A stretch of DNA of 64,000 nt from Frateuria edaphi. Lineage in GTDB: Bacteria; Pseudomonadota; Gammaproteobacteria; Xanthomonadales; Rhodanobacteraceae. The stretch is from positions 2,294,001-2,358,000 of the forward strand of contig NZ_CP088251.1 in NCBI RefSeq assembly GCF_021117405.1. The letters are read 5' to 3'. The notes under the pieces were generated by a model. It searched no databases, was not told where the DNA came from, and worked only from the letters and a program-made list of their open reading frames with translations. This document shows positions 4,106 through 20,918 of this stretch, in pieces. Positions within the stretch are counted from its first letter, which is position 1; each line of letters begins with the position of its first letter. The position numbers and the translations under genes are program-made.

Positions 4106-4155
4106 GGGCACTCCTCTTTGCTGCCGGGCTTGTGCAAGGGCGGCACCGCCTGGCC

Positions 4156-4259
4156 GTCATTCCCGCGGAAGCGGGAGGCGCCTTTCAACTGCGACTGCTG
4201 GTCTTCGATGCCACGCTCGTCGAGGGCGGCCATGGATTTCCCGCTTTCGCGGGAATGAC
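4156..4259. repeat. Inverted pair of GTCATTCCCGC-type repeats
   Basis: Two copies of the widespread GTCATTCCCGCGNAAGCGGGA sequence face each other at 4156-4176 and 4237-4259. They enclose about 60 bases in the gap between the receptor and the glycosidase. Each copy is itself a hairpin. This resembles a MITE or REP doublet; no coding capacity was seen. Confidence 0.65.
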
Positions 4260-4293
4260 GCCCGGGCCGTTCCGGGTTCCATCCCGGGAACCC

Positions 4294-4332
4294 GAAAAAG
4301 GCGCCTGCGCCCGCCACCGGCAGGGCGCAGGC
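4294..4332 (-). terminator. Rho-independent terminator of the TonB receptor gene
   Basis: On the minus strand, 14 bases past the receptor stop, a perfect 10-bp stem (GCCTGCGCCC/GGGCGCAGGC at 4303-4312 and 4323-4332) is followed by GCCTTTTT. This should limit read-through into the GH65-like genes, so they may have their own promoter. Confidence 0.75.
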
Positions 4333-4345
4333 AATCCGGGGTGCT

Positions 4346-6934
4346 TCAGAACATGTACTTCACTTGCAGGTTGACCTCGCGCCCTTCCAGCGGACGGGCC
4401 AGGATCACGCCGGTGGTGCCGGCAGCCGAACCGAAGATGCGCGAGTTGCTTTCGGTCAGGCCCAGCTCGTTGGTCATGTTGGTGCCCTGCAGGCGCACCT
4501 GCCAGCTCTGCTGGATATTGGCGACGATGCCGAAGTCCCAGGTGTGGTAGCTGCCCAGTTGCTGCAGCCCGGAGATGTCCTGGGTATGCGGGCCGACATG
4601 CGTGAAGGTCACGAAGGCCAGCACGTCGCCCCAGCCGAACGGCATGTCGTAGCTGGGCGTGAACATGTAGCGCACCTTCGGCTGACGCTGCAGCTGTACG
4701 CCGTTGATGTTCGCGCAACCGTCGCCGGCGACCGGGTTGGTGTAGGGCAGGCACGAGCGGTTGTGCGAGTACACGCCGTCCAGGTAGTTGCCGACCAGCT
4801 GGAACTTCAGGTGCTCGATCGGGCTCCAGGCGGTGTTGATGTTCACGCCCTTCGAATCGGAACCATAGGTGCTCTGCGGCCCGTTCGGCACGCCCGCCGC
4901 GTCGGTCGGCTGGTACAGCAGGCCGTTGAACTGGCGGTGGTACACGGTGATGTCAGCGTAGAACTGCTCGCTCTGGTACTTGAAGCCACCTTCGAAGTTC
5001 TGGATCTTCTGGATCGGCGCGGTGTTGCCCGTGACGTTGCCGCGGATGCCGTTGTCGAAGTCGTCGAAGTGCGCACCGCGGTTGGCGCGGAAGTACACGC
5101 TCATGTTGTCGGCGAGCTCATAGTTGACGCCGAAGGTCCACGACGGATGGGTCTTGTCGTAACGCGTGTGGTCGAAGGTGCCGTCGCACACAGGCACCGC
5201 GTTATCATAGATCGTCCGAGGGTTGCCATCGAGGTCAATGACGCCGGTGACCGGATTACCGTCCGCATCCACGCGCCCGTCGCTCTGGAAATTGCACACG
5301 TCGTTGTAGGCGTCCTGGTTCTCGATGCGCCCGGACAGATCGATCAGCCACTTGCCCACGCGCCAGATGTCGGACAGGTAGAACGCCTTGTTGTTGGCGA
5401 CACCGTGCTGGGCGATGTTGTAGCCGCCGTAGTCCAGGAAGCCCTGGTTGTCGGTGAGCTGGTTGACGCCATTGGCATCGACGTAGCTGACCGTGATTGG
5501 CCGCGCGTTGGGCGTGTTGGTCATGAGCATCTGGTTGCCCAGCGCCCATTCGTCGTCCATCGTGTAGTGCGCCAGGTACAGGCCGGCGGTGAGCGTATTG
5601 CCCTCGAAGATTTCCTTGCTCAGGCGGAAGTCGTTGTTGATGTTCTTCAGGTGCTTGTGGATGAACCACCAGCCCTGGTGGATCACGCTCTGGTTGGGAT
5701 CGACCGCGCCGCCGCCGACATAGGTCGCGGTGGCCGAGCCGGGCGCCAGGTTGAACGCGCCGATCTGGCTCTGGTCGGTGTAGAGCATGTCGTTGAGGCT
5801 GCCCGGGTTGGTGCCGGAGAACAGCGCGTTGGTGTCGACATCGCCGCCGTCGATGAGGAACTTGTCAGACAGGTTCCAGCCGTTGCCCAGGTCGTAGTCG
5901 AAGTTGCCGCCGAAGAAGCCGAACTTCGCGCCGCGGCCGTTGGCCAGGTTGGCGTCGCGACCGCCGCCCGGGTAGCCGCGCAGGAACACGTGCTGGATGG
6001 CCGGGCCGTTGTAGGTGTCGGTGAGCGGATCGAAGCCCGGGTAGGCGCTGAAGTTGTCCGTGCCGCTCTGGATCAGCGGGATCGGCGTGATGAACTGGTT
6101 GCGGTCGTTGAGGTAGCGCGCGTACAGCGTCATCGAGCCGTTGTCGCTGTCGTGGGTGAACGTGCCGGTGAGCTGGCCGCCCTTGTCCGCCGCGAACTTC
6201 GGATCGCGCACACCGTCGGAGTCGCGGTAGAAGCCGCCGATGCTGCCGTAGGTGTTCTTGGCGATCGGGAAGCCGAAGAAGCCGTCGACGCGCTTGAGGT
6301 TCTCGTTGCCGTAGGTCACGCCGATGCTGCCCGAAGGCACCTCGGTACCCTGCTTGAGGATGAAGTTGGCGGTCGCGCCGATCTGGCCGTCGCCGAATAC
6401 GACCGACGGGCCACCCTGCACGATCTCGGCGCGGTCGACCGTGTCGTCGAGGCGGAAGATCGAGGTGGTCTCGAAGAACGACAGCGTGGGCATGCCGTAC
6501 AGCGGCGAGCCCATCATCTGGGTGCTGAAGTACGGCGCATCGCCGCCGCCGGGGAAGCCCGCGATTTCGATGTTGGCGCCGGTCTGGCCGCCGGTGGACT
6601 CGGGCCACAGGCCGGGGGAGATCTTCAACAGGTCGGCCGTGCTCTTGGGATTGGCCAGCCGGATCTGTTCGGCGGTGGCCGTGGTGACCGAGTAGCTGGT
6701 GTCGATCTTGCGCAGGCCGCCGGTGGCGGTATTGCCCGTCACCACGACCTGCTCGAGGTTCTTGGCGCTCGCCTTGCTGGGCGGCTGTTGCTGCGCCTGG
6801 GCATTGGCCGGTTGGGTGGCGTCGGTTTGCGGCGCCGTGTTCTGCGCCTGATCATCGTTCTGCGCCAGCGCGATGCTGGGCATCAGGCAGGCGGCTATTG
6901 CCGCGGATAAGGCCAGTCGCACGTGCTTGTTCAT
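4346..6934 (-). CDS. TonB-dependent outer-membrane receptor, likely for a glucan or oligosaccharide
   Basis: This 862-residue protein starts MNKHVRLALSAAIAACLMPS with a cleavable signal ending ALAQ. A Gln-rich linker and the stretch NLEQVVVTGNTA, a TonB-box-like VVVTG, come next. The plug domain contains DRAEIVQGGPSVVFGDGQIG, and a long 22-strand barrel ends in aromatic LQVKYMF, the usual outer-membrane sorting end. I placed the start at the internal ATG with GGGGAG 8 bases upstream instead of the longer MRGAKL form. Such receptors import bulky ligands using TonB-ExbBD energy. Neighbouring GH65-like hydrolases and the adjacent LacI gene suggest an alpha-linked oligosaccharide, but this is inference from context. 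A LacI-type palindrome lies about 140 bases upstream of the start. Confidence 0.9.
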   Translation of the reverse strand: MNKHVRLALSAAIAACLMPSIALAQNDDQAQNTAPQTDATQPANAQAQQQPPSKASAKNLEQVVVTGNTATGGLRKIDTSYSVTTATAEQIRLANPKSTADLLKISPGLWPESTGGQTGANIEIAGFPGGGDAPYFSTQMMGSPLYGMPTLSFFETTSIFRLDDTVDRAEIVQGGPSVVFGDGQIGATANFILKQGTEVPSGSIGVTYGNENLKRVDGFFGFPIAKNTYGSIGGFYRDSDGVRDPKFAADKGGQLTGTFTHDSDNGSMTLYARYLNDRNQFITPIPLIQSGTDNFSAYPGFDPLTDTYNGPAIQHVFLRGYPGGGRDANLANGRGAKFGFFGGNFDYDLGNGWNLSDKFLIDGGDVDTNALFSGTNPGSLNDMLYTDQSQIGAFNLAPGSATATYVGGGAVDPNQSVIHQGWWFIHKHLKNINNDFRLSKEIFEGNTLTAGLYLAHYTMDDEWALGNQMLMTNTPNARPITVSYVDANGVNQLTDNQGFLDYGGYNIAQHGVANNKAFYLSDIWRVGKWLIDLSGRIENQDAYNDVCNFQSDGRVDADGNPVTGVIDLDGNPRTIYDNAVPVCDGTFDHTRYDKTHPSWTFGVNYELADNMSVYFRANRGAHFDDFDNGIRGNVTGNTAPIQKIQNFEGGFKYQSEQFYADITVYHRQFNGLLYQPTDAAGVPNGPQSTYGSDSKGVNINTAWSPIEHLKFQLVGNYLDGVYSHNRSCLPYTNPVAGDGCANINGVQLQRQPKVRYMFTPSYDMPFGWGDVLAFVTFTHVGPHTQDISGLQQLGSYHTWDFGIVANIQQSWQVRLQGTNMTNELGLTESNSRIFGSAAGTTGVILARPLEGREVNLQVKYMF

Positions 6935-7063
6935 CAGCTTCGCTCCCCGCATAAGTGATGTTCAGACGGCATGGACCGCGCGCGCGGCCTGCCGCTTCGC
7001 CCTTGTTGCGCCCCACTTGTGTGCCTTGCACCCGCGGGCATCTTGCCGCAAGCGGGGCACATG

Positions 7064-7100
7064 TTTGCCTTGCTTTGACAGCGCTGTCAATTTGCCTTGC
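7064..7100. promoter_or_regulatory. Probable LacI-family operator: perfect palindrome inside a direct repeat
   Basis: TTGACAGCGCTGTCAA at 7075-7090 is a perfect 16-bp palindrome with the central CG step typical of LacI-family operators. It is bracketed by two exact copies of TTTGCCTTGC (7064-7073 and 7091-7100), and a further TGCCTTGC occurs near 7022. It lies between the receptor start and the 3' end of the LacI gene, so it is well placed to control the receptor. TTGACA within the palindrome could also act as a -35 element on the minus strand. Confidence 0.75.
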
Positions 7101-7126
7101 AACAAATTTCTTACACGTTCTTTCCC

Positions 7127-8134
7127 TTACGCCGCCTGGGCGGTGGACTCGCGCACTTCCAGCGAGAACGTGGCCTGCACCATCGCGCCGGGCCGCCCGC
7201 GCAGGGTGTCGAGCAACTGCAGCGCGGCGATGCGGCCCATTTCGCGGCTGGGCTGGTGGATGGTGGTGAGCGTGGGCCAGATCTGGCGCGCGATCGGGGT
7301 GTCGTCGAAGCCGCAGACCGAAACGTCCCGGGGCACCAACAGGCCGTGCTCGCCGGCCGCCCAGATCACGCCGGCGGCCATGTCGTCGTTGGCCGCGAAC
7401 ACCGCCGTCGGCCCGCGTCCGCGTGGCAGCGAGAACAGCCGCCGCGCCGCCGCCACGCCGCTGCCGAAGGAGAAGTCGCCCGGCACTTCCAGTTCCGGGT
7501 CGCGCTGCAGTCCGGCCTCGGCGAGCGCCGCGCGATAGCCGGCCAGACGCCACTGGCTGGCGCCGTGGTCCGGATGCCCGATGACGTGCGCGATGCGCCG
7601 GTGGCCCAGCGCCAGCAGCGTCGCCATCATCTGGCGCGCCGCTTCCGGTTCGTCGATGAAGGCGCCGATGGTGCCGCCGCGCTCGATCGGCGAAACGCTG
7701 GCATAGAGCACGCGCCGCTCGAGCAGGCGCTGCAGCAGCGCGGGGTTGTCGGTGATCGGCGGCGTCAGCAGCAGGCCGTCGGGGCGGTGGTGCGAGAGCA
7801 GCCGGTCGACGCGGTCGACGAAGCCGGTTTCCTCCACGTGAAGCGGCCGCACCATCATGCTGTAGTGGTGCAGGTCGCAGGCCTCCAGCACGCCGGCCTG
7901 GATCTCGGTGAGGTAGTTCGACGAAGGGTTGTCGTAGAGCATCGCGATCAGGAACGAGCGGTTGCTCGCCAGGCTGCGCGCCGGCTGGTGCGGGCGATAG
8001 TCCATCGCCGCCATCGCGGCAAGCACCTTCTCGCGCGTGGGGCCACGCACGTTCGCTTCGTCGTTGAGCACGCGGGAGACGGTCTTGGGCGACACCCCCG
8101 CGGCGCGTGCCACATCTTCCAGGCGAACCCGCAT
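7127..8134 (-). CDS. LacI-family transcriptional regulator
   Basis: At 335 residues this is the usual LacI length. The N-terminal helix-turn-helix reads VRLEDVARAAGVSPKTVSRV (residues 3-22), followed by a hinge-helix region (RPHQPARSLAS) and a periplasmic-binding-protein-like sensor domain ending near VFAANDDMAAGVIWAAGEHG and SVCGFDDTPIA. ATG at 8134 has AGGA 6 bases upstream; the open frame extends far beyond it into the next gene but has no sensible coding there. It most likely represses the receptor, and perhaps the GH65-like genes, until a sugar effector binds. The palindrome at 7075-7090 is the obvious site. The gene shares the strand of the receptor and could form part of its transcript. 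Confidence 0.9.
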   Translation of the reverse strand: MRVRLEDVARAAGVSPKTVSRVLNDEANVRGPTREKVLAAMAAMDYRPHQPARSLASNRSFLIAMLYDNPSSNYLTEIQAGVLEACDLHHYSMMVRPLHVEETGFVDRVDRLLSHHRPDGLLLTPPITDNPALLQRLLERRVLYASVSPIERGGTIGAFIDEPEAARQMMATLLALGHRRIAHVIGHPDHGASQWRLAGYRAALAEAGLQRDPELEVPGDFSFGSGVAAARRLFSLPRGRGPTAVFAANDDMAAGVIWAAGEHGLLVPRDVSVCGFDDTPIARQIWPTLTTIHQPSREMGRIAALQLLDTLRGRPGAMVQATFSLEVRESTAQAA

Positions 8135-8211: not shown

Positions 8212-10044
8212 CTACTTCAGGTCGAGCGCCGCGCGCGTAAGAACCTGCTCGCCCCGCGGGTGTCCCGATGGCGTGCGTATGTCGACCGGCCATGGCGCGT
8301 TTTCGAACAGGTGCGCCCACAGACGGTCCAGCGCGGCGTAGCCGTAGGGCAGCAGCGGCAGGTGCCGTTCGCCGAAGCCGGGCAACGGCAGGAACGCATC
8401 GAAGTGCTGCGCGTGCGGCACCTTCCAGTACAGCGGCCGGCGCCCTGCGGCGCGCAGCCAGGCGATGTACGGTTCGGAGGTGAAGGCGGTCGGCAGCAGG
8501 CCGTCGTCGGCTCCGTGCACCACCCACAGCGGCAGGTCCTCGCGCGGTAGCCGCGCCACGGTCGCCTCGATGCCCGCGTGCAGCGCCTGCGCGGAGGCGT
8601 CGTCGCCGTCCCAGAGCGCGCGCAGGCATTGTTCGCCGGCGAGCGTGGGATCGGCCGAACCGTCGGTGCCACCGAACAGGCCGATGCCGTTGCCAGGCGG
8701 AATGCCCGCGCTGTCCGACCACCACGCCGCACGGCTGGCCGCGTCTGCGATGCCGGGCGTGCCCTCCGGCGTGGCCGCGGCGTAGTGGAAGCCGCAAGGC
8801 ATGTTGGCCGTGCCGCGGCGCAGGTAGGCCGAGGCGTAGCCGGCGGTGATCGCGCGCCACAGGTCGAACGCGGTCGATGTGGCCGCCACCTGCATGGCCG
8901 CCTCGGTCCAGCCCGATGCGCGGAGATATTCGTACGCCTCGGCCGCCTGCGTCGCGGGCGTGGCGGACTCGAGCAGGCCCTGAGCGTGCAGGCTGGCGCA
9001 GCGTTGTGGCCACCCCCCGGTCATCGGCGCGCGCGCGAACGGCACCGCATCGAAGCGCGCGCTGGTCAGCGCGCAAGGCAGCCAGATCGCCGCCTCGGTG
9101 GCGTAGTCGTAGAGCTTGCGACCCTGCCCGGCCAGTTGCACGTTGGGCTCCAGCGCGACCACGCCGTCGAGCAGTTGCTCGTCGTCCAGGCCCGCGGCCT
9201 GCAGCACCGCGCCGCCGCCGTTGGAAAGCCCTGTCGCGATGATGCGCGTGTTCGTCGCCGTGAACGGCGCAAGCTCCGGATAGGCGCGATCGAGCATGGC
9301 CAGCCCGAAGCGCGCCGCCTGCAACACGTGGCGACCCCAGTCGGCCTCCGGGTTGTCGCCCGAGTGCAGATGCTTGACCGCGATGCCCGCGCCGGCCGGC
9401 AGCGGTGGCGGGGTGAACTCCAGTGGCGCCTCGCCGCGTTTCGCGCGGCGGCCATCGAGCGCCACGCCGCTGTCGTCGGTGTAATCGAAGAAGCCGCTGC
9501 CGGCACCCTTGTCGGTATAGGCCACCGCGCAGCCCTTCGGCAGGCCCCAGGCACCGGCCAGTGCGATCGCGCCGTAGATCCCGCGCGAGCCGGACGATGC
9601 AGTGACCACAAGGCAACGCTTGTCCTTGTCGAAGCCGTCCGGCGCCTGCAGCAGCACGCGATGGGGTTGATGCGCGCCCGGTATCCAGGCGAAGGCCTGG
9701 TATTCGCGCCCCGGCACCGACGGGACGCCTCCGTAGACCTGGCCGTAACCACCGAGGGGTCCGAGGTCGGCGATGCCCTTCCAGTTCATCTGGATCGCGC
9801 GGCGACGCAGTTCCTGCGGCGTGGGGCGAGCTGGATCGGCGAAAGGAACCGGTGCGCCGGCCAGGCCTGCGAGGCCCAGTCCGGCGCTGAGCAGGTCGTC
9901 ATGGTCGCGGTGGGTGGTGACCCGCACCTCACCCGGAACGAAATCGATCGATGGCATGGCAGGCTCCGCGGCCGCGGCGTGGACGGCGCCGCCAGCCAGG
10001 GCGGGCACCAGCATCAGGGTCAGCCGCTTCAGGAACGCGTTCAT
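8212..10044 (-). CDS. D-(-)-3-hydroxybutyrate oligomer hydrolase
   Basis: The 610-residue product has a signal peptide (MNAFLKRLTLMLVPALAGGA) and matches the 3HB-oligomer hydrolase family, which splits soluble 3-hydroxybutyrate dimers and oligomers into monomers. Recognisable blocks are VTASSGSRGIYGAIALAGAW, CAVAYTDKGAGSGF, the serine-hydrolase elbow TGLSNGGG near residue 273, and WVVHGADDGLLP plus PHAQHFDAF near the C-terminus, which should hold the catalytic Asp and His. Family members are about 600-700 residues, so it is full length. The start has AAGGTG 5 bases upstream. A copy of the GTACGAAGG motif lies 36 bases before the start. The gene diverges from the LuxR-type regulator at 10249. 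Together with the PHB depolymerase at 15892 it would complete extracellular or periplasmic PHB breakdown. Confidence 0.87.
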   Translation of the reverse strand: MNAFLKRLTLMLVPALAGGAVHAAAAEPAMPSIDFVPGEVRVTTHRDHDDLLSAGLGLAGLAGAPVPFADPARPTPQELRRRAIQMNWKGIADLGPLGGYGQVYGGVPSVPGREYQAFAWIPGAHQPHRVLLQAPDGFDKDKRCLVVTASSGSRGIYGAIALAGAWGLPKGCAVAYTDKGAGSGFFDYTDDSGVALDGRRAKRGEAPLEFTPPPLPAGAGIAVKHLHSGDNPEADWGRHVLQAARFGLAMLDRAYPELAPFTATNTRIIATGLSNGGGAVLQAAGLDDEQLLDGVVALEPNVQLAGQGRKLYDYATEAAIWLPCALTSARFDAVPFARAPMTGGWPQRCASLHAQGLLESATPATQAAEAYEYLRASGWTEAAMQVAATSTAFDLWRAITAGYASAYLRRGTANMPCGFHYAAATPEGTPGIADAASRAAWWSDSAGIPPGNGIGLFGGTDGSADPTLAGEQCLRALWDGDDASAQALHAGIEATVARLPREDLPLWVVHGADDGLLPTAFTSEPYIAWLRAAGRRPLYWKVPHAQHFDAFLPLPGFGERHLPLLPYGYAALDRLWAHLFENAPWPVDIRTPSGHPRGEQVLTRAALDLK

Positions 10045-10079
10045 TCCGGCACCTTAGCAAGCACGCGCGCGGACGCCAT

Positions 10080-10093
10080 CGTACGAAGGTCCA
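10080..10093. promoter_or_regulatory. Candidate response-regulator site (GTACGAAGGTCC)
   Basis: CGTACGAAGGTCCA lies between the divergent oligomer hydrolase and response-regulator genes. It matches the perfect inverted repeat at 19424-19437 (TGTACGAAGGTACA on the minus strand) at 12 of 14 positions, with an identical 10-base core. The only other copy of the nine-base core I noticed lies inside typA coding sequence (22700). Function is inferred from position and sharing. Confidence 0.5.
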
Positions 10094-10110
10094 TGCCGGT
10101 ACCGTTTTCC

Positions 10111-10135
10111 AGGAAAGCACCCTGTGCGCGACCGC
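10111..10135. repeat. Degenerate single REP-like unit
   Basis: AGGAAAGCACCCTGTGCGCG followed by ACCG is a mutated copy of the AGGAGCGCACCCTGTGCGCG unit seen intact at 10906. It lies in the divergent promoter region, next to the candidate regulatory motif. Confidence 0.5.
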
Positions 10136-10248
10136 CCGGTCCCCGACCATCCGTCGCCCCGCTTGCGTCACGTCCGCGTCGCGCACGGATGCGCTCCGGC
10201 AGGGGGTGGAACTCGACGCCACGGCGCGCACCCGCTAGTTTGCATGGC

Positions 10249-10908
10249 ATGCCTTCCCTGCTGATCGCCGACGACCATCCGCTGTTCCGCGCCGCGTTGC
10301 GCCAGGCGGCCATCGCCTGTGTCGCAGACTGCCAGGTCAGCGAAGCGGCCGACCTCGCCGATGCCCTCGCCGCGCTGACGGCCGCCCCCGACACCGACCT
10401 GGTGCTGTTGGACCTGCACATGCCCGGCAGCCAGGGCCTGTCCGGCCTGGCCGCGCTGCGCGGCCAGCATCCGGGCGTGGCAGTTCTGGTGGTATCCGCG
10501 CATGACGAGCCGCGCACCGTGCGCCGCGTGCTCGACCACGGTGCGGCAGGTTTCATCCCCAAGAGCGCCACTCCCGCCCAGATCGGCGAAGCGATCCGCA
10601 CCGTGCTCGACTGCGGCAGCTGGGTCCCTCCGGGCCTGGCCAGCGCAGTCGGCGCGCTCGCGCCCGACCCGAGAGACGCCGACCTCGCCGCCCGCCTCGC
10701 GCGCCTGACCGAACAGCAGTACCGCGTGCTGGCGCTGATCGGCGAAGGCCTGCTCAACAAGCAGATTGCCGATCGACTGGCCATCCAGGAACGCACCGTC
10801 AAGGCGCACGTGACGGCGATCTTCGAAAAGCTCGGCGTGCGCAACCGCACGCAGGCCGGCTTGCTGCTGCGTTCGCTGGACCTGGGCGAGCCGGCGCGGG
10901 TCCTGTAG
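10249..10908 (+). CDS. LuxR/NarL-type response regulator, CrbR/ErdR-like
   Basis: The 219-residue protein has a receiver domain with the acidic pair DD at residues 8-9, phospho-acceptor Asp55 in VLLDLHMPG, and Lys near residue 105 in FIPKSA. A C-terminal LuxR helix-turn-helix reads LTEQQYRVLALIGEGLLNKQ and continues IADRLAIQERTVKAHV. It is probably the partner of the transporter-type hybrid kinase at 12540-15845. In Vibrio and Pseudomonas the comparable CrbS/CrbR (MxtR/ErdR) pair controls acetate use through acs. Here the surrounding genes suggest control of PHB and 3-hydroxybutyrate use, which also feeds acetyl-CoA. The two genes are separated by an RluA-type gene and yaeQ. Its TAG stop lies within a REP-like repeat. 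Pairing with the kinase is inferred from type and location. Confidence 0.85.
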   Translation: MPSLLIADDHPLFRAALRQAAIACVADCQVSEAADLADALAALTAAPDTDLVLLDLHMPGSQGLSGLAALRGQHPGVAVLVVSAHDEPRTVRRVLDHGAAGFIPKSATPAQIGEAIRTVLDCGSWVPPGLASAVGALAPDPRDADLAARLARLTEQQYRVLALIGEGLLNKQIADRLAIQERTVKAHVTAIFEKLGVRNRTQAGLLLRSLDLGEPARVL

Positions 10909-10932
10909 GAGCGCACCCTGTGCGCGACCGCG
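10904..10932. repeat. REP-like unit overlapping the regulator's stop codon
   Basis: TGTAGGAGCGCACCCTGTGC followed by GCGACCGCGG starts inside the last codons of the response-regulator gene and supplies its TAG stop. It is the most typical copy of the repeat family in this window. Confidence 0.65.
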
Positions 10933-10964
10933 GCGGACCGGCACCGCGGACTGACGCTGCATTT

Positions 10965-11840
10965 CTACAAGGCTTCGAGCGACAACCTGCTGCGGAATTC
11001 CCGCGCCTGCCCGCTCAACGGATCGACGAACGCCAACCCGCGCGCCAGCAACTGCAGCGGCCGGCTGAAATCATCTTCCAGCCGTTCCTGCAGCTGCGGA
11101 TAAAAGCGGTCGTTGCGGATGGGTGCGCCCAGCGCCGCCATGTGCACGCGCAACTGGTGCTTGCGCCCGGTATGCGGCTCCAACGCGTAGCGCCAAAGCT
11201 GCGCGCCACGTTCGATCACACCCACGCGCGTCTCGCTGTTCGCTTCGCCCTCCACTTCGCGCATGCGGAAGAACGGCTCGCCCGCCTCCAGCCGCGAGCG
11301 GTGCACGTGCGGTAGCGCAAGTTGCGGCAAGGGCGCGGCCAGTGCCTCGTAACGCTTGACGATGCGCCGCTCGCGGAACAGCGACAGATACGCATCCCGC
11401 GTAGCCGGCTGCGCCGAAAACAGCACCAGCCCGGCAGTCTCGCGATCGAGCCGGTGCAACGGCACCAGTGCCGGATTGCCGAGCCGGCGCACGAGGCGCG
11501 CCAGCAAGGTCTGCTGCACGTAGCCGCCGGCCGGCACCACCGGCAGGAAGTGGGGTTTGTCGACCACCACCAGGTGATCGTCGACATGCAGCACGACCTC
11601 GTCGCCGGGGATCGCCGGTTCGCTCTCGACCTCGCGGAAATATTTCAGCTTCATGCCGGCGCGGCCGGGCGTGTGCTCGTCGATCGGCATGTCGCTGGCA
11701 TCCAGCACCCGGCCACGGCGGATCCTGTCCAGCCACTGCGCGCGGCCGATGCGCGGAAAACAGGCGCACAGCCCGTCGAGCGCGGTCGCCCAATCGCCTT
11801 CGGGCAGGTGCACGGTGCTCGGCGCGGTCGCATGGATCAT
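10965..11840 (-). CDS. RluA-family pseudouridine synthase
   Basis: This 291-residue protein carries the RluA-family catalytic block PLHRLDRETAGLVLF near residue 150, whose Asp is the uridine-attacking residue. Other family blocks are VVDKPHFLPVVPAGG and the C-terminal HTGRKHQLRVHMAALGAPI. It isomerises specific uridines in rRNA or tRNA; which one cannot be told, as RluA, RluC, RluD and TruC share these motifs. The residues before the catalytic domain (about 1-90) resemble a short S4-like region, which is weak evidence. The start is the ATG at 11840, close to the divergent yaeQ promoter. It interrupts the PHB regulatory cluster and has no evident functional link to it. Confidence 0.87.
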   Translation of the reverse strand: MIHATAPSTVHLPEGDWATALDGLCACFPRIGRAQWLDRIRRGRVLDASDMPIDEHTPGRAGMKLKYFREVESEPAIPGDEVVLHVDDHLVVVDKPHFLPVVPAGGYVQQTLLARLVRRLGNPALVPLHRLDRETAGLVLFSAQPATRDAYLSLFRERRIVKRYEALAAPLPQLALPHVHRSRLEAGEPFFRMREVEGEANSETRVGVIERGAQLWRYALEPHTGRKHQLRVHMAALGAPIRNDRFYPQLQERLEDDFSRPLQLLARGLAFVDPLSGQAREFRSRLSLEAL

Positions 11841-11867
11841 CCGGCCAGCTTAGCGCCGGCCGCGGCG

Positions 11868-11873
11868 TACAAT
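11868..11873 (+). promoter_or_regulatory. Possible -10 element for yaeQ
   Basis: TACAAT lies 27 bases before the yaeQ ATG, and no good -35 hexamer is visible 17 bases upstream. It is offered only as a likely -10 element. Confidence 0.35.
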
Positions 11874-11900
11874 GGCCGATTACCCGCAGCAGGCACGACC

Positions 11901-12455
11901 ATGGCCCTCAACGCCACCATCCACAAAGCCGAGCTGTCGATCAGCGACATGGATCGGCACTACTACGCGACCCACGCGTTGACGCTGGCCCGCCATCCCT
12001 CCGAAACCGAGGAGCGGCTGATGGTGCGGTTGCTCGCCTTCGCGCTGCACGCGGACGATCGGCTGGAGTTCGGCAAGGGCCTGAGCGACGAGGACGAACC
12101 AGCACTCTGGCGACGCGCGTACACCGACGAGGTGGAGCAGTGGATTGAACTCGGCCAGCCGGACGAGGCGCGCATCCGCAAGGCCTGCGGGCGCTCGCGG
12201 CAGGTCGTGGTGGTCAACTACGGTGGACGCGTCGCCGACATCTGGTGGGACAAGGTCGGCGCCTCGCTCTCGCGCAACGACAACCTGACCGTGCTCGACA
12301 TCGACGACGCGACCGTGCGCCAGCTCACCGCACTATGCGAGCGCGGCATGCGGTTGCAGTGCCTGATCCAGGATGGCGAGCTGCAGCTGATCAGCGGCGA
12401 CACCACCGTCGCGATCCGTCCCCGCGCACGCATGGGCGAATACGCCGCCGCCTGA
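11901..12455 (+). CDS. yaeQ: YaeQ family protein
   Basis: The 184-residue product matches YaeQ along its length: it begins MALNATIHKAELSISDMDRH, contains HPSETEERLMVRLLAFALHA in the middle, and includes WWDKVGASLSRNDNLTVLD. YaeQ has a PD-(D/E)XK nuclease-like fold and is linked in Escherichia to suppression of rfaH defects, but its biochemical role is unsettled. It is a common single-copy gene in Gammaproteobacteria. It is transcribed divergently from the pseudouridine synthase gene and convergently with the hybrid kinase. Nothing ties it to the PHB genes around it. Confidence 0.9.
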   Translation: MALNATIHKAELSISDMDRHYYATHALTLARHPSETEERLMVRLLAFALHADDRLEFGKGLSDEDEPALWRRAYTDEVEQWIELGQPDEARIRKACGRSRQVVVVNYGGRVADIWWDKVGASLSRNDNLTVLDIDDATVRQLTALCERGMRLQCLIQDGELQLISGDTTVAIRPRARMGEYAAA

Positions 12456-12516
12456 CGGACAAGGCTTCCCCGCGCAGGAGCGGGGTTGTCCGGGACTGCC
12501 ATGCGCAACCGTTTCC

Positions 12517-12545
12517 CGCGGTCGCGCACAGGTGCACTCCTACAC
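12517..12545. repeat. REP-like unit overlapping the hybrid kinase stop codon
   Basis: Read on the minus strand, TGTAGGAGTGCACCTGTGCG followed by CGACCGCGG matches the unit at 10904. It supplies the kinase gene's TAG stop, so both two-component genes end in the same element. Confidence 0.65.
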
Positions 12546-15500
12546 TCGCACCGCCGCCGCCACGCGCTGCAGCAACTGGCGCAACGCCAGCGGCTTGAGC
12601 GGCTTGTAGAGCACGCCGATCCCCGCATCGAGCAGGCGCTGGCGCAATTCGCCGTCACGGTCGGCGGTCAGCATCACCGTCGGCACGTCCGGGTGGCGCC
12701 CGCTCAGTTCGCGCCAGACGTCCCAGCCGGTACGCCCCGCGTCGAGGTGATAGTCGAGGATGTGCAGGTCCGCCTGCCACGGCGCCGCGAGCGCCTGGGC
12801 CGCATCGCGGGCGGCATGCACCTGCCAGCCCCAACCGGTAAGCAGCGTGCTCAGCGCGGCCAGCGCCGCCGGTTCGTTGTCCAGCACCAGCGCTCGCCCG
12901 GCCGACAGCGGCTGGAGCGTAGCCGCGGCTGCCGGCACGCTCGCCGGCATCCGTGCCAGCGGCACGCCCAGGTCGAACACGCTGCCCTGGCCCGGCCATG
13001 AGCGCAGGCCCAGCGGATGCCCCAGCAGACCAGCCATGCGCCGGGCGATCGACAGGCCCAGGCCCAGCCCCTGCCCGCCCGCGGCACTGCCGCGACGGAA
13101 CTCCTGGAAGATCATCGCGCGCTCCTGCGGCGCGATGCCCGGGCCGGTGTCCCACACCTCCACGCGCAGCTGCGCGCCGCAACGGCGCACGCCCAGCAGT
13201 ACGCGGCCGCGTTCGGCGTAGCGCAACGCGTTGGAGAGGAAGTTCTGCAGCACCCGGCGCAGCAGTTGCGGATCCGAATGCACCCAGGCGCGCGTGCCGA
13301 CCACGTCCAACCGCACGCCGCGGTCCTGGGCGATGGCGCCGAACTCGGCGGCCAGCGGATCGAGTACCTCGGCCAGCGCGAAAATGCGCGACTGCGGCTG
13401 CAGGCGGCCGCCCTCCAGACGCGCGATGTCGAGCAGGCCGGCGAGCAGGCCTTCGGTCGCGGTGAGCGCGCCATTGAGGTTGCCAGCGATGGCCGCGTCG
13501 GCTCCGTGTTCGGTCAGCGTATGCGCGAACAACTGCGCCGCGTGCAACGGCTGCATCAGGTCGTGGGTGACGGCGGCCAGGAAGCGGCTTTTGGCCTCGT
13601 TGGCGCGCTGGGCCTCGGCGCTGGCGGCGGCCAGCGCACGGGTGCGCTCTTCCACGCGCAATTCGAGCGTCTCGTTGACCTTCTTCAGGGCGTCCTCGGC
13701 GCGGCGGAATGCGGTGACGTCGGTGAAGGTGGCGACGAAGCCGCCGCCGGGCATGGGATTGCCGCGGATCTCCACGATCGTGCCATCGGGAAAACGCCGC
13801 TCGGACAGGTGCCGCGTGCCGGCCTGCATGTGGGTCAGCCGGCGCTGCACGCGCGTCTCCACGTCGCCTTCGCCGATCAGGCCCTCGCCAATGATGAAGC
13901 GCGTGAGGTCGGCGACCGGACGGCCGATCTGCAGCATGTCGTCGGGGTACTGGAACAGCCGCGCGTAGCAGCGGTTCCAGGCCACCACGCGCAGCTCCGC
14001 GTCGACCACGCAGATGCCCTGGCTCATGTTCTCCAGCGCCGCCTCCAGCACGCGCTGGTTGAAGCGCAGGTCCTGCGTGGCTTCGCCGACGATCGCCGCG
14101 ACGGTGTCCAGTTGCGCGCGGCCCTGCTTGTGCACCACTTCCAGCAGCAGCCGCGCCGACGCCGCGCCGATCACCGCGGCCAGTTCGTGCTCGACCGCGT
14201 CGACCCGCGCATGGCCGGCGGCACCCTGCTCCGGCGCGGTGGCGAACAGGTGCGCCACGCGCTCTGGCGGCAGGAAACGCTCGGCCAATGCGCGCAGCTC
14301 CACCACGCCAACGTCGCCGACGCCCGCCACGCGCGTGGCCTGGCCGAAGCGCGACTGGGCCACCAGCCACGTCACCGCCACGTTCGCCGCCAGGCTCAAC
14401 ACCACGGCGCGGCCCAACTGGCTCCAGTCGCCCAGCCCGAGCAGCCCGGCGGGCGACAGCCAGCCGAGCCCGAACGGGCCGTGCAGCAATCCCGCCGGCA
14501 TCGCCGGCCACAGCGAGGGCAGCACCACGTAGAGCCACACGAACGTGCCGCAGGCCAGCCCCGCGGTCACCGCACGCGGCCCGACCTGCGGCCGGTACAC
14601 GGCGGCGAGCAAGGCCGGCGCCAGCCCCGCCAGCGCGGAGAACGAGATCGCGCCGATGTCGGCCAGCGCCTCGTGGCTGGCCAGGACGCGGCTGTAGCCC
14701 CAGGCCAGCAGGATCACCACCACGATCGCCACGCGGCGCTGGTTGATGACCTCGCCACGCAGGTCGCCACGCTCGTCGCGGCCCCAGCCGGCGCGCACGC
14801 GCAGCGGAGCGATGAAGTGGTTGACGATCATCAGGCTGAGCGCCAGCGTGGCGACCACCACCATGCTGGTGGCGGCGCTCAAGCCCCCGAGGAACGCCAC
14901 CAGCGCCAGAGTGTGCTGCCCGCGCGCCAGCGGCAGCGCAAGCACGTAGAGGTCCGACGGTACGCCGCTGGGCCCGAGCCACGCGTCGCCGAGCTTCGCC
15001 AGCGGCAGGATCGGCAGCGCGATCAGCAGCATGTACAGCGGGAACAACCATCGCGCGGTGCGCAGGTGGCCGCCGTCGCGACACTCGACCACGCCGGCAT
15101 GGAACTGGTGCGGCAGGGTGAACATCGCCAGCGCGCCGAGCAGGATCAGGGCCGGGAAGCCGGTGCTCTCGTGCGGCGGCACCGGCACCGGCGGCAGGCC
15201 GGCGGGCAGTGGGGTGAACAGCAGCGTGCCCAGCGCCAGCATCGCGCCCAGCTTGAACAGCGATTCGAACGCCATCGCCAGCACCAGCCCGCGGTTGTGG
15301 GCCGTGGTGGACGCGCGGCGGGTGCCGAACAGCATCGCGAACAGCGCCATCAGCAGCGCGATGTAGAGCGCACTGTCCTGCCATGGCTCGGACTCGGCGA
15401 GCTGGCCGTGGCTGAGCAGCATGTAGCTCATCGCCACGGCCTTCAGCTGCAGCGCGATGTAGGGAACGATGCCCAGCACCACCACCGCGGTGACCAGCGC

Positions 15501-15845
15501 CGCCAGTCCCGAGTGGCGTCCCAGCCGCACCGCGATCAGGTCGGCCAGCGAGCCGGCGTTGTACTCGCGCGCCAGCTCCACCAGCCGCCGCAGCACGGCG
15601 ATCGCCAGCAGGTACATCAGGATCGCGCCGACGAAAGTCGGCGGCAGCCACCAGCCCGAGCGGCTGGCCTGGGTCACCGTGCCGTAGAAGGTCCACGAGG
15701 TGCAGTGGATCGCCAGCGACAGCGCATAGACGATCGCCCAGCGCTTCTCGAACAGCCGCGGGCGCCGCTCGCCGAGCAGCGCGACGCCGAACAGCAGGCC
15801 GAGCCAGCAGGCGGCGGCGAGGGCGATCAGCGTGGGGCTGGGCAT
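12540..15845 (-). CDS. CrbS-like hybrid sensor kinase with sodium/solute symporter domain
   Basis: This 1101-residue protein combines several modules. Residues 1 to about 480 form a multi-spanning sodium:solute symporter-like domain (TSWTFYGTVTQASRSGWW, GIVPYIALQLKAVAMSYMLL). A STAC-like linker at about 500-575 follows, then a PAS domain at about 615-720 (MSQGICVVDAELRVVAWN). A histidine kinase comes next, with phospho-acceptor His near 760 in AVTHDLMQPLHAA and an ATPase (NFLSNALRYA, DTGPGIAP, GLGLGLSIA). A C-terminal receiver has its Asp near 1029 in ILDYHLD. This order is that of CrbS/MxtR, sensors of acetate or carbon status. It lies 46 bases downstream of the PHB depolymerase gene on the same strand, so the two are probably co-transcribed. 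The expected partner is the LuxR-type regulator at 10249. Confidence 0.88.
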   Translation of the reverse strand: MPSPTLIALAAACWLGLLFGVALLGERRPRLFEKRWAIVYALSLAIHCTSWTFYGTVTQASRSGWWLPPTFVGAILMYLLAIAVLRRLVELAREYNAGSLADLIAVRLGRHSGLAALVTAVVVLGIVPYIALQLKAVAMSYMLLSHGQLAESEPWQDSALYIALLMALFAMLFGTRRASTTAHNRGLVLAMAFESLFKLGAMLALGTLLFTPLPAGLPPVPVPPHESTGFPALILLGALAMFTLPHQFHAGVVECRDGGHLRTARWLFPLYMLLIALPILPLAKLGDAWLGPSGVPSDLYVLALPLARGQHTLALVAFLGGLSAATSMVVVATLALSLMIVNHFIAPLRVRAGWGRDERGDLRGEVINQRRVAIVVVILLAWGYSRVLASHEALADIGAISFSALAGLAPALLAAVYRPQVGPRAVTAGLACGTFVWLYVVLPSLWPAMPAGLLHGPFGLGWLSPAGLLGLGDWSQLGRAVVLSLAANVAVTWLVAQSRFGQATRVAGVGDVGVVELRALAERFLPPERVAHLFATAPEQGAAGHARVDAVEHELAAVIGAASARLLLEVVHKQGRAQLDTVAAIVGEATQDLRFNQRVLEAALENMSQGICVVDAELRVVAWNRCYARLFQYPDDMLQIGRPVADLTRFIIGEGLIGEGDVETRVQRRLTHMQAGTRHLSERRFPDGTIVEIRGNPMPGGGFVATFTDVTAFRRAEDALKKVNETLELRVEERTRALAAASAEAQRANEAKSRFLAAVTHDLMQPLHAAQLFAHTLTEHGADAAIAGNLNGALTATEGLLAGLLDIARLEGGRLQPQSRIFALAEVLDPLAAEFGAIAQDRGVRLDVVGTRAWVHSDPQLLRRVLQNFLSNALRYAERGRVLLGVRRCGAQLRVEVWDTGPGIAPQERAMIFQEFRRGSAAGGQGLGLGLSIARRMAGLLGHPLGLRSWPGQGSVFDLGVPLARMPASVPAAAATLQPLSAGRALVLDNEPAALAALSTLLTGWGWQVHAARDAAQALAAPWQADLHILDYHLDAGRTGWDVWRELSGRHPDVPTVMLTADRDGELRQRLLDAGIGVLYKPLKPLALRQLLQRVAAAVRV

Positions 15846-15891
15846 GACGCGCTGAGCTCCCTATCCATTGCGGGACAGGGCAGAACGAAAG

Positions 15892-16914
15892 TCATCGCTT
15901 GGCGGGCAGCCCCAGCGCGCGCACGGCGTCGACCAGCCAGCGCAGTTGCACGCCCTGGCGGGTGTCGTAGTCGGCTCCGGAGTATCCCCACCAGTCCCAG
16001 CATGCTTGCGGATTCAATGGCGCGAAGCTCGCGCGTGCCTGAGGGTACAGCACGGCCACGTCGTAGGCGTCCGCCCAGCGGTTGAAGCCGGCGTCGCGCA
16101 CGAACGCCTCGCCCACCGCCTCGGCGTTCTGCTTGCATCCGTGCAGCGCGACCAGCAGGCCGCAGGGTTTGCCGGCGGCGCAGGAGGGCGGCAGGTAGAC
16201 ATAGCCCTCGGCGGCGAGGAAAGCATCCTTGCCGTCCGGGCGCAGCGCATCCTGGCCGAATGTGCGCAGCTCGCCGCGTGGCGCGGTCACGGCGTGGGCC
16301 GGTTTGCCAAACAGCTCGGCGAAGATCGTCCCTGCCGCATCGAAACCGCAGTGACCGAGGAACGGCGACACCGACGTGCCGCAATCGTCGCCCTTCCCAG
16401 CCACCGGCAGGTTGTGCGCGAAGGCGCGCGCGCCGTCGTCGCGTACCCGCATGCCCTCGAGGCCCGGCACGCTGTCACGCAGGCTTTCGTAGAAGCGCGC
16501 GCCCGCCTCGGCCACCGACGGCGCGACCATGGCGTCGTCCTTGCCGTGCAGCAGATAGACATGCGAACCCGCCAACTGCGCGAGCGGTCCGATACGCCCG
16601 TCGGCCGACAGCTTCCGTGCGCGTGCGACCAGCGCGCCCACGTCGGGCGCCGGCGCGCGTTTCATGCAGCTTCCGATCGCCGTGGCGAGCTGGCCGCCGG
16701 CGCAACCGTACGGGCCGCCGGCGACGATGGCGGCGCCATGGAAGATTTCCGGATAGGCGATCTGCGCCTGGGCGGCCATGAAGGCGCCGGAGGAGAGACC
16801 GGCCACGGCGACGCGCGCGGGGTCGAGCTGGAGTTTTGGCAGCGACGGGGCATCGCCGGCATGGGCGAGCGCGCTGGCGAAAAGGAGGGCCAGCAGGCTG
16901 AGGATCTTGCGCAT
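15892..16914 (-). CDS. Extracellular PHB depolymerase, type 2 catalytic domain
   Basis: The 340-residue secreted esterase has the signal peptide MRKILSLLALLFASALAHAG. The lipase box VAGLSSGAFMAAQ places the nucleophile at Ser42, and family-specific stretches FHGAAIVAGGPYGCA, LLHGKDDAMV, LLVALHGCKQNAEAVG and CWDWWGYSGADYDT follow. The early lipase box and the late HGCKQ oxyanion region are typical of the type 2 short-chain-length polyhydroxyalkanoate depolymerases. No separate substrate-binding or linker domain is present, so binding to polymer granules may be weak and the substrate may be amorphous PHB or long oligomers. It precedes the CrbS-like kinase in the same orientation with 46 bases between them. 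Products would feed the oligomer hydrolase at 8212 and the permease at 19521. Confidence 0.9.
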   Translation of the reverse strand: MRKILSLLALLFASALAHAGDAPSLPKLQLDPARVAVAGLSSGAFMAAQAQIAYPEIFHGAAIVAGGPYGCAGGQLATAIGSCMKRAPAPDVGALVARARKLSADGRIGPLAQLAGSHVYLLHGKDDAMVAPSVAEAGARFYESLRDSVPGLEGMRVRDDGARAFAHNLPVAGKGDDCGTSVSPFLGHCGFDAAGTIFAELFGKPAHAVTAPRGELRTFGQDALRPDGKDAFLAAEGYVYLPPSCAAGKPCGLLVALHGCKQNAEAVGEAFVRDAGFNRWADAYDVAVLYPQARASFAPLNPQACWDWWGYSGADYDTRQGVQLRWLVDAVRALGLPAKR

Positions 16915-16940
16915 ATCGATCTCCGGCGCGGTCTTTTTTT

Positions 16941-16995
16941 AAGGAGCGCACCCTGCGCGACCAGTAGATGGCGGTCGCGCGCAGGGTGCGCTCTT
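16941..16995. repeat. Inverted pair of REP-like units
   Basis: GAGCGCACCCTGCGCGACC (16944-16962) faces GGTCGCGCGCAGGGTGCGCTC-type sequence (16973-16993) across 10 bases. It lies between the TonB receptor and PHB depolymerase genes. It could end or attenuate transcription or protect 3' ends, as REP hairpins do elsewhere. Confidence 0.7.
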
Positions 16996-17088
16996 ACAGG
17001 ATGGCATCCCCCGCAGGCAGGAAAGGAGCCGGGCGGCGGGGAGGTGGCATCCCGGCGCCTTTCCTGCTGCAGAAGGAAAGGTGCGACG

Positions 17089-19314
<2,226 letters not shown>

Positions 19315-19416
19315 GACTCCCCTCCCCTTTGGACGCAACCGTCGAGGGTTGCCTGTGGACGCAGCCATCGACGATGGGTGCCTTGATGCACCGATCCTAG
19401 GCATGGGCACGCAACG

Positions 19417-19443
19417 GGGCACTTGTACCTTCGTACAGTGCCC
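19417..19443. promoter_or_regulatory. Inverted repeat in the divergent receptor/permease promoter
   Basis: The arms GGGCACTTGTAC and GTACAGTGCCC flank CTTC, with one unpaired T. The inner TGTAC-CTTC-GTACA (19424-19437) is a perfect inverted repeat. A third GGGCACTGT lies at 19472-19480. The inner part shares ACCTTCGTAC with the region before the oligomer hydrolase (10080-10093, opposite strand). It is probably a binding site for the LuxR-type regulator, about 85 bases from the permease start and 77 bases from the receptor start. Confidence 0.6.
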
Positions 19444-19520
19444 GGCCGGCGGCGCGCTGCCGATACTCGTCGGGCACTGTCATTGCGGCGCGGCTGCGCG
19501 CCGCCGGGGAAAAAAGGTCG

Positions 19521-20918
19521 ATGGCATTCCTGATCGTTCTGGTCGCGCTGGCGTTCCTGATGGTGGCGGCGTACCGCGGCTACAGCGTCATCCTGTTCGC
19601 GCCGATCGCGGCGCTGGGCGCGGTGCTGCTGACCGATCCGGCGCTGGTGGCGCCGATGTTCACCGGCCTGTTCATGGACAGGATGGTGGGCTTCCTCAAG
19701 CTCTACTTCCCGGTGTTCATGCTCGGCGCGGTGTTCGGCAAGCTGATCGAGCTGTCGGGTTTCTCCAAGGCGATCGTGGCGGCGACCATCGGGCTGGTCG
19801 GGCGCGGCCGCGCGATCCTTTCCATCGTGCTGGTGTGCGCGCTGCTGACCTACGGCGGGGTGTCGCTGTTCGTGGTGGTGTTCGCGGTCTACCCGTTCGC
19901 GGCCGAACTGTTCCGCGCCAGCGGCATCCCCAAGCGGCTGATCCCCGGCACCATCGCACTGGGCGCGTTTACCTTCACCATGGACTCGCTGCCCGGCACG
20001 CCGCAGATCCAGAACATCATCCCGACGTCGTTCTTCGGCACCACCGCCTGGGCGGCGCCGTGGCTGGGCACGATCGGCTCGGTGTTCATCCTGGTCGTGG
20101 GCCTGGCCTATCTGGAATCGCGCCGGCGCAAGGCCGCCGCCGCGGGCGAGGGCTACGGGAGCGACCTGGTCAACGAGCCGGCGCCGTTCGAGCACGGCAA
20201 GCTCGCCCATCCGCTGGTCGCGCTGCTGCCGCTGGTGCTGGTGGGCCTGGCCAACAAGCTGTTCACCGACTGGATACCGCGCGCCTACGGCGAAACCGCT
20301 TCATTCGCGCCCAGCGTGGTCGGCAAGGCCGAGCCCGTGGTCCAGGAAGTCTCCAAGCTCGCCGCCATCTGGGCGGTGGAGGGAGCGTTGCTCGTAGGCA
20401 TCGTATGCGTGCTCGCGTCCGCCTGGCGGCCGGTGGTCGAACGCTTCGCCGAGGGCAGCCGCAGCGCCGTGGGCGGCGCGTTGCTAGCCTCGATGAACAC
20501 CGCGTCCGAATACGGCTTCGGCGCAGTGATTGCCGCCCTGCCCGGCTTCAGGCTGGTGGCCGACGCGCTGCACGGGATCCCCAACCCGCTGGTCAACGAA
20601 GCGGTGACGGTCACCGCGCTGGCCGGCATCACCGGTTCGGCGTCGGGCGGGATGGGCATCGCGCTGGCGGCGATGGCGCATACGTTCATCGCAAATGCCG
20701 AGGCCGCCGGCATTCCGATGGAAGTGCTGCACCGCGTGGCCGCGATGGCGTCCGGCGGCATGGACACCCTGCCGCACAACGGCGCGGTGATCACCCTGCT
20801 GGCGGTGACCGGGCTGACGCACCGGCAGTCCTACCGCGACATCTTCGCCATCACGGTGATCAAGACGCTCGCAGTCTTCGTGGTGATCGCGCTGTTTGCG
20901 CTGACCGGCCTGACCTGA
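19521..20918 (+). CDS. GntP-family permease, likely for D-3-hydroxybutyrate
   Basis: The 465-residue protein is almost entirely hydrophobic segments, about 12 by eye, beginning MAFLIVLVALAFLMVAAYRG. GntP-family stretches include LYFPVFMLGAVFGKLIELSG, LTYGGVSLFVVVFAVYPFA, DSLPGTPQIQNIIPT and ALAGITGSASGGMGIALAAM. The family moves gluconate and related hydroxy acids with protons; a branch is annotated as D-beta-hydroxybutyrate permease, and this sequence looks like that branch. A ribosome site (AAAGG) lies before ATG 19521. It is divergent from the TonB receptor of the PHB locus, which strongly supports uptake of the monomer released by the hydrolases. A gluconate or other hydroxy-acid substrate cannot be excluded. 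Confidence 0.8.
   Translation: MAFLIVLVALAFLMVAAYRGYSVILFAPIAALGAVLLTDPALVAPMFTGLFMDRMVGFLKLYFPVFMLGAVFGKLIELSGFSKAIVAATIGLVGRGRAILSIVLVCALLTYGGVSLFVVVFAVYPFAAELFRASGIPKRLIPGTIALGAFTFTMDSLPGTPQIQNIIPTSFFGTTAWAAPWLGTIGSVFILVVGLAYLESRRRKAAAAGEGYGSDLVNEPAPFEHGKLAHPLVALLPLVLVGLANKLFTDWIPRAYGETASFAPSVVGKAEPVVQEVSKLAAIWAVEGALLVGIVCVLASAWRPVVERFAEGSRSAVGGALLASMNTASEYGFGAVIAALPGFRLVADALHGIPNPLVNEAVTVTALAGITGSASGGMGIALAAMAHTFIANAEAAGIPMEVLHRVAAMASGGMDTLPHNGAVITLLAVTGLTHRQSYRDIFAITVIKTLAVFVVIALFALTGLT

Follow-up and report, generated by a model that had tools for sequence, protein, structure and literature searches.

A CrbS/CrbR-like two-component system that probably controls the scavenging of polyhydroxybutyrate or 3-hydroxybutyrate oligomers in Frateuria edaphi and other Lysobacterales

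Several two-component systems have been described in which the sensor kinase carries a transporter domain of the SLC5 type. According to the parts of the sources drawn on here, CrbS/CrbR (MxtR/ErdR) is the acetate system of Vibrio and Pseudomonas, with the ACTU motif (PMC5715377, PMC5436829, PMC8402216), RpuS/RpuR is the pyruvate system of Sinorhizobium fredii, with the pyruvate symporter MctP as its target (PMC9100948), CbrA/CbrB is a histidine transceptor (PMC13022988, a preprint), and the use of (R)-3-hydroxybutyrate (3HB) in Pseudomonas is controlled by HbcR/RpoN (as cited in PMC10482368). Within the portions of text reached by an open-access search, no literature was found that ties an SLC5 kinase to polyhydroxybutyrate (PHB) or 3HB. 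Here we describe a 64 kb stretch (C1:2294001-2358000, hereafter the window) of the one-contig 3.77 Mb genome of Frateuria edaphi, in which a kinase and a regulator of the CrbS/CrbR kind lie among genes for PHB use, and we propose that a dedicated SLC5-type two-component system, belonging to what we call clade A, probably controls the scavenging of PHB or 3HB oligomers. A dedicated 3HB system is suggested because the pair has a palindrome of its own, a changed recognition helix and a changed ligand pocket.

The window pair resembles CrbS/CrbR in that the kinase has the order SLC5, PAS, histidine kinase and receiver, in that it is paired with a LuxR-type regulator, and in that a short inverted repeat precedes the presumed targets. 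It differs in that it lies outside the clade of acs-linked kinases and has PHB and 3HB genes as neighbours, that its candidate operator is TACN4GTA and not [GT]ACN4GTC, that its recognition helix has QERT and not SEAT, and that its pocket reads HTWTLTFGAHF whereas that of acs-linked kinases reads YSWTYIYAARF. RpuS/RpuR provides a parallel, with an SLC5/STAC kinase beside the transporter gene that it regulates and a CrbS-like pair that has turned to a new substrate; the sequence L289, identified with RpuS on the ground that pNGR234b gave no other match, falls outside clade A and shares with it the His at the position of CbrA H257. CbrA has in common with the window kinase the SLC5 fold and a Lys in the Na2 site (K198 in the window kinase), but the profile match reaches only 217 bits and the pocket residues differ, in a comparison that covers CbrA and not CbrB. 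HbcR/RpoN likewise serves 3HB use, but HbcR is an enhancer-binding protein whereas the window system is a two-component system of the transporter type. The features of the locus, in window coordinates, are these.

8212..10044, minus strand: 3HB-oligomer hydrolase (3HBOH); PF10605 at 415 bits, E 7e-124, over cut-off
10077..10096, no strand: candidate second operator CATCGTACGAAGGTCCATGC, 32 bases upstream of 3HBOH; 11.9 bits, second best score in the 64 kb
10249..10908, plus strand: CrbR-A, LuxR-type response regulator; Response_reg and GerE domains, ErdR NCBIfam model, recognition helix QERTVKAH
12540..15845, minus strand: CrbS-A hybrid kinase with SLC5 symporter domain, PAS, HisKA/HATPase and receiver; clade A in the tree
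15892..16914, minus strand: type 2 extracellular short-chain polyhydroxyalkanoate (PHA) depolymerase (PhaZ), catalytic domain only; NF050059, 2d80/2d81
17089..19314, minus strand: TonB-dependent receptor; PF00593 and PF07715
19421..19440, no strand: candidate main operator ACTTGTACCTTCGTACAGTG, in the gap that separates the divergently oriented genes for receptor and permease; 25.5 bits, the best of the window
19521..20918, plus strand: probable 3HB permease (homologues annotated GntP family permease), from homologue annotation and neighbours
10965..12455, both strands: RluA-like pseudouridine synthase (minus) and YaeQ (plus), an insertion between regulator and kinase, not members of the system

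From low to high coordinate the gene order is 3HBOH (-), CrbR-like (+), RluA-like (-), YaeQ (+), CrbS-like kinase (-), PHB depolymerase (-), TonB receptor (-), permease (+) and TypA (+). The original prediction had named six genes here, for the depolymerase, the oligomer hydrolase, the receptor, the permease, the hybrid kinase and the regulator, and all of them were confirmed by gene calling and family scans. The ATG at 10249 is preferred as the start of CrbR-A to the TTG at 10240 because relatives begin MPSLLIADDHPLF. From its sequence appearance 3HBOH would be exported, the signal peptides of PhaZ, 3HBOH and the receptor having been recognised by eye. Among the loci taken for comparison the nearest named relative is Frateuria flava (L076), the kinase of which is 95% identical to the window kinase.

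To sample the locus, named genomes were scanned with the kinase alone and the best 80 of 215 loci were taken, 50 of which, picked by kinase similarity only, had about 10 kb on either side. In these 50 full-flank loci the regulator was present in 49, 3HBOH in 48, the permease and the TonB receptor in 44 each, and the depolymerase in 29. Permease, receptor, regulator and 3HBOH were all present in 43 of the 50, and the check proposed with the original prediction, a search for the same gene set in relatives, was thus strongly positive. The locus had also been described as complete-looking for PHB scavenging, and all of its parts are in the window, but the PHB depolymerase is found in only 29 of these relatives, namely in 29 of the 32 loci with a kinase identity of at least 66% and in none of the 18 below. 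The usual core is permease, receptor, kinase, regulator and 3HBOH, with PhaZ the least constant part, and since the core occurs without PhaZ the common theme would be 3HB oligomers or the monomer. Loci under 66% kinase identity were mostly Lysobacter-type, and 3HBOH there was often followed by PssA, PhaE and class III PhaC; BdhA adjoined the regulator in six A loci (for BdhA and PhaC/PhaE, one of each was tested for identity). A lipase lies beside the permease in 18 A loci (L085:3964-4662 and 17 others); the one tested is PhaZ7-like by NF050060, at 58 bits against a cut-off of 450, and it is possibly a second depolymerase. When 147 genomes of the family were drawn for co-occurrence, kinase A was found in 81, the permease in 75 and both in 72 (Fisher 1e-27), and 3HBOH was found in 116, including all 81 with kinase A. 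Kinase A was scored as present at a printed identity of at least 57%, and the weaker or broken matches in G074, G076, G079, G085, G091, G100 and G122 were scored as absent, possibly wrongly because G079 and G085 carry the permease.

The published CrbR motif, as given in the part of the source used, is ACTU (PMC5715377), and we searched for it as [GT]AC[CT]N3GTC in the gaps between genes. It was found upstream of acs in 5/5 gaps between acs and c22, and in only 5/58 permease-receptor gaps and 5/49 CrbR-3HBOH gaps, and it is not the motif of the linked genes; control of the PHB locus through ACTU was rejected on these counts. The background of this motif is not zero, as it was found in 8/26 kinase-regulator gaps and 7/33 PhaZ-kinase gaps. 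A separate observation is that ACTU precedes prpE in 10/12 gaps. In A loci such as L045, L047 and L069 this propionate--CoA ligase gene (the single copy tested matched TIGR02316) lies downstream of MDH, and the position of ACTU before it suggests that propionate activation, too, is under canonical CrbR.

Counts of spaced triplets gave instead TAC-N4-GTA together with TGT-N8-ACA, and the candidate operator is the palindrome ACTTGTAC-N4-GTACAGTG. The bare TACN4GTA was found in 41/58 permease-receptor gaps, 20/49 CrbR-3HBOH gaps and 3/5 BdhA-3HBOH gaps, and, apart from one class taken up below, in none of the remaining gap classes listed. A weight matrix was built from 24 distinct sites (8 permease and 16 3HBOH sites), with the window sites outside the training set, and it scored above 8 bits in 58/58 permease-receptor gaps and 53/54 3HBOH gaps, as against 0/17 LipA2-permease gaps and 0/13, 0/12 and 0/28 gaps for PhaE, PssA and MDH, respectively. 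When the matrix was trained on the 8 permease sites only, 46/54 3HBOH gaps scored higher than all five of their shuffles, and when it was trained on the 16 3HBOH sites only, 50/58 permease gaps did so; 4/645 other gaps passed 8 bits, one of which was the window's own 3HBOH gap. The two best-scoring sites in the 64 kb were 19421-19440 and 10077-10096, which are exactly in the permease-receptor and 3HBOH gaps; the first is the sole TACN4GTA in the 64 kb and the second is a 3-mismatch match to the plain pattern. By eye, -10-like boxes lie about 20 bases after the candidate operators, as expected for an activator site. A conserved signal before PhaZ was rejected, since it was taken to reflect the end of the receptor's coding sequence.

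Across the 147 genomes the full operator, with at most 3 mismatches, was found at 77 sites in 72 genomes, while the pattern read backwards gave 11, and 64 of the 77 sites were within 450 bp of a permease start, the window's 19421-19440 among them. The operator was present in 70/81 genomes with A vs 2/66 genomes without A. In genomes that have 3HBOH and lack A, only 2/20 3HBOH promoters scored above 8 bits, both from genus g17 (20 of 35 such genomes were examined). In the window's own genome of 3.77 Mb there were ten places with at most 2 mismatches, of which only the permease and bdhA sites exceeded 6 bits. The bdhA gene is unlinked in this genome (C1:3567543-3568316), and its site, of 12.6 bits, lies 55-74 bases upstream of the start; strong bdhA sites (17.8, 20.1 and 23.4 bits) were found in three genomes of genus g10.

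A number of observations weigh against dedicated control of the locus by the A pair. The operator pattern was missing in 11/81 A genomes, and the bare TACN4GTA was found also in 3/26 PpiB-DUF937 gaps. The matrix passed 8 bits in 0/31 gaps before PhaZ and in 1/53 before the kinase, and therefore these two genes would be either read through from the receptor promoter or separately controlled. A looser IUPAC pattern with at most 3 mismatches was not enriched in the own genome (134 per strand vs 196 backwards), and therefore only the few best or best-scoring sites are meaningful. Sites above 8 bits before bdhA were found in only 6/29 genomes with A and also in 1/18 without it, the latter a congener of the window, and because of these counts bdhA is a member of the regulon in some lineages at most. 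Permease and receptor were not nearby in 6/50 loci, and shared descent inflates the species counts.

The recognition helix of the regulator was QERTVKAH in 18/19 A rows vs SEAT[VI]KAH in 17/17 rows of B, the acs-linked type, and SEAT is found as well in the regulator rows from Acinetobacter and Sinorhizobium meliloti. For the sensor, the SLC5 domain of the kinase matched the solved structure PDB 10ed by profile over positions 4 to 448 (E 3e-63, 217 bits); we regard 10ed as CbrA, since its sequence agrees with the residue numbering of the CbrA preprint. This preprint, in the part used, places 11 residues around the bound histidine (PMC13022988), and these were mapped by hand onto the A and B kinases. 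Seven of the 11 positions differ between A and B while being at least 90% conserved in each, as against 41/428 overall (P 1e-5), and every A and B row retains the lysine of the Na2 site. One of the seven changes, from Ser to Thr, is not specific to A, since most other family members have Thr, and the His in place of Arg is also found in L289 and L292. The original prediction had the sensor possibly detecting 3HB or acetate, and of these two acetate is the less likely signal because the pocket differs from that of the acs-linked kinases at these seven positions.

With the pocket changed, there is a lesser but appreciable chance that the signal is not 3HB itself but a different short carboxylate from this path, such as acetoacetate, 3-hydroxyvalerate or the 3HB dimer, the targets being the same. 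The permease bears on this. It had no match to any Pfam or NCBIfam model, a PDB sequence search was also fruitless, hhalign against E. coli GntT was not significant, and its structure model (predicted local distance difference test, pLDDT, of 60) gave weak fold matches. Its homologues, with identities up to 75%, carry the annotation GntP family permease, and in 3 of 8 that were inspected (two from Azospirillum and one from Cupriavidus taiwanensis, 72-75% identity) a 3HB dehydrogenase gene lies within 3 kb. The other five have none nearby, one of them having CoA-transferase genes, and permease homologues thus adjoin 3-oxoacid CoA-transferase as well as BdhA, as sensing of another carboxylate would allow. 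On a Cupriavidus plasmid a sigma54-type regulator adjoins the permease-BdhA pair. What speaks for 3HB itself is that 3HBOH, whose product is 3HB by family name, accompanies kinase A in every one of its genomes.

It is unlikely that the pair is this organism's ordinary acetate CrbS/CrbR, sensing acetate and running acs, and was retained beside the PHB genes either fortuitously or on account of acetyl-CoA as end product. The domain order is the same as in CrbS; in Pfam scans PAS_7, HATPase and receiver were over cut-off and HisKA slightly under. The SSF model of Pfam gave no match on the SLC5 region, and a fold comparison was used in its place, in which the kinase model (pLDDT 74.5) matched CHT1, SGLT2, NIS, SMCT1 and SiaT. 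A STAC domain between SLC5 and PAS was not found in the general Pfam scan, no search aimed at STAC having been made. The regulator scored 220.7 bits against the NCBIfam ErdR model, for which the cut-off is 390, but 0/59 family genomes pass it, B type included. In a kinase tree of 69 sequences, made by a quick method, with several long branches flagged and with no row for a characterised Vibrio or Pseudomonas CrbS, clade A was a single group of 24 rows within Lysobacterales (SH-aLRT 100), while the acs-linked kinases formed a separate clade B, to which Acinetobacter was sister. Among the matches listed, many family genomes have a further SLC5 kinase, about 46% identical, and many relatives have both A and B, with B beside acs. 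Of 20 B-type stretches taken, 19 were usable (L128 was mis-aimed and misses the kinase), and gene calling placed kinase, regulator and acs together in 12 of these 19; in the rest the regulator or acs was somewhat farther off or uncalled (e.g. G016, G039). On the separate clades and on the place of B beside acs, plain orthology of A to CrbS/CrbR was rejected; the linkage of a CrbS/CrbR-type system to PHB genes holds as a physical link, but the system is not the acetate CrbS/CrbR itself. A third ErdR-like regulator occurs in seven genomes (L202-L208); its helix, in the rows that were read, is LAENTVKIH, and the neighbouring kinase, about 870 aa long, can be aligned to CrbS only over its PAS-kinase part.

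The acetate function is favoured by the window genome itself, where A is the only SLC5 kinase, no second regulator was found among the ErdR-like matches listed, and yet acs is retained, with a degenerate ACTU-like site of 6.3 bits before it. The B pair was probably lost from this genome, because in its acs stretch (L211) nothing is found at the place, between acs and c26/pdxJ, where relatives such as L122 and L133 carry B. As a control, ACTU was found before acs in 4/4 genomes with both A and B and in 0/8 with neither, and one further genome of unclear B status was without the site (20 acs stretches were taken, of which G012, on the wrong side, and G020, a partial gene, were left unscanned). 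Good ACTU-like sites were kept before acs in 3/6 genomes that have A and lack B, and this too counts against a purely 3HB-dedicated system, since A may therefore serve acs there. The acetate function is opposed by the coexistence of A and B, by the differences in operator, recognition helix and pocket, and by the lack of an A operator around the own acs, the best score across 17 kb being 1.4 bits. That the neighbourhood is kept merely by slow genome rearrangement, without joint regulation, is very improbable: the flanking housekeeping genes (TypA in 26/50, PpiB, MDH) are also syntenic in Rhodanobacteraceae, but the core persists in Lysobacter-type genomes with different flanks, YaeQ and the RluA-like gene come and go (0/50 full-flank relatives, yet both in Frateuria flava L076), and the operator is distributed among genomes as the kinase is and, in some, precedes the unlinked bdhA.

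PhaZ is a type 2 extracellular short-chain-length PHA depolymerase by NF050059 (315.9 bits, cut-off 280), matched PDB 2d80 (E 6e-46) and also 2d81, and has a lipase box GLSSG near residue 40, i.e. near the N-terminus. 3HBOH belongs to its family by PF10605; in a search for plasmid-borne relatives of it, the 4 records found had at best only 34% identity. The receptor slot is filled among relatives by either of two receptor types about 33% alike, with promoter and operator kept, and that the receptor imports 3HB oligomers is a guess from gene position. A PhaC_N search of the own genome for PHB synthase gave 0 matches; class III PhaC, the type beside the Lysobacter loci, was not searched, and absence is not claimed. 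At 1859-8095 a GH65 glycosidase, a TonB receptor and a LacI regulator, all on the minus strand, resemble a separate sugar-use cluster.

The simplest account is that a CrbS/CrbR-like pair is dedicated to the supply of 3HB from external PHB. In this account the ligand of the kinase's SLC5 domain would be a small carboxylate that the pathway sets free, with 3HB the likeliest, CrbS-A would phosphorylate the LuxR-type regulator, and the regulator would bind the palindrome and activate the divergent permease and TonB-receptor(-PhaZ-kinase) units as well as 3HBOH, with PhaZ, which has no site of its own, transcribed from the receptor promoter. PhaZ would cleave the polymer, the receptor may import the oligomers, 3HBOH would yield the monomer in the periplasm, the permease would import 3HB, and BdhA, encoded elsewhere with a weaker site, would oxidise it. 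The path from polymer to oligomer, through receptor and periplasm, to imported monomer had been anticipated in the original prediction, and it is supported by the presence of a PHB depolymerase, an oligomer hydrolase, an outer-membrane receptor and a 3HB-type permease. We are evenly divided on a wider proposal, that this is a further ligand class of SLC5 transceptors, in which a Lysobacterales CrbS/CrbR-like pair was re-tooled at both ends, in the pocket for 3HB or its oligomers and in the helix from GAC-N4-GTC to TAC-N4-GTA, with a dedicated regulon for environmental PHB that includes a TonB receptor for 3HB oligomers, and that in this genus it outlived the acetate system.

Which signal activates SLC5 kinases is not settled, as stated for CbrA in the part of the preprint used (PMC13022988), and for this reason a member with a predictable ligand and a reporter promoter would be useful. 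If the proposed dedication to 3HB is true, a promoter responding to 3HB would serve to detect the breakdown of bioplastic, the two related systems would be a natural pair in which both the ligand pocket and the DNA-binding helix have changed, and the control circuit, operator and sensor for PHB use by a large group of soil bacteria would be in hand.

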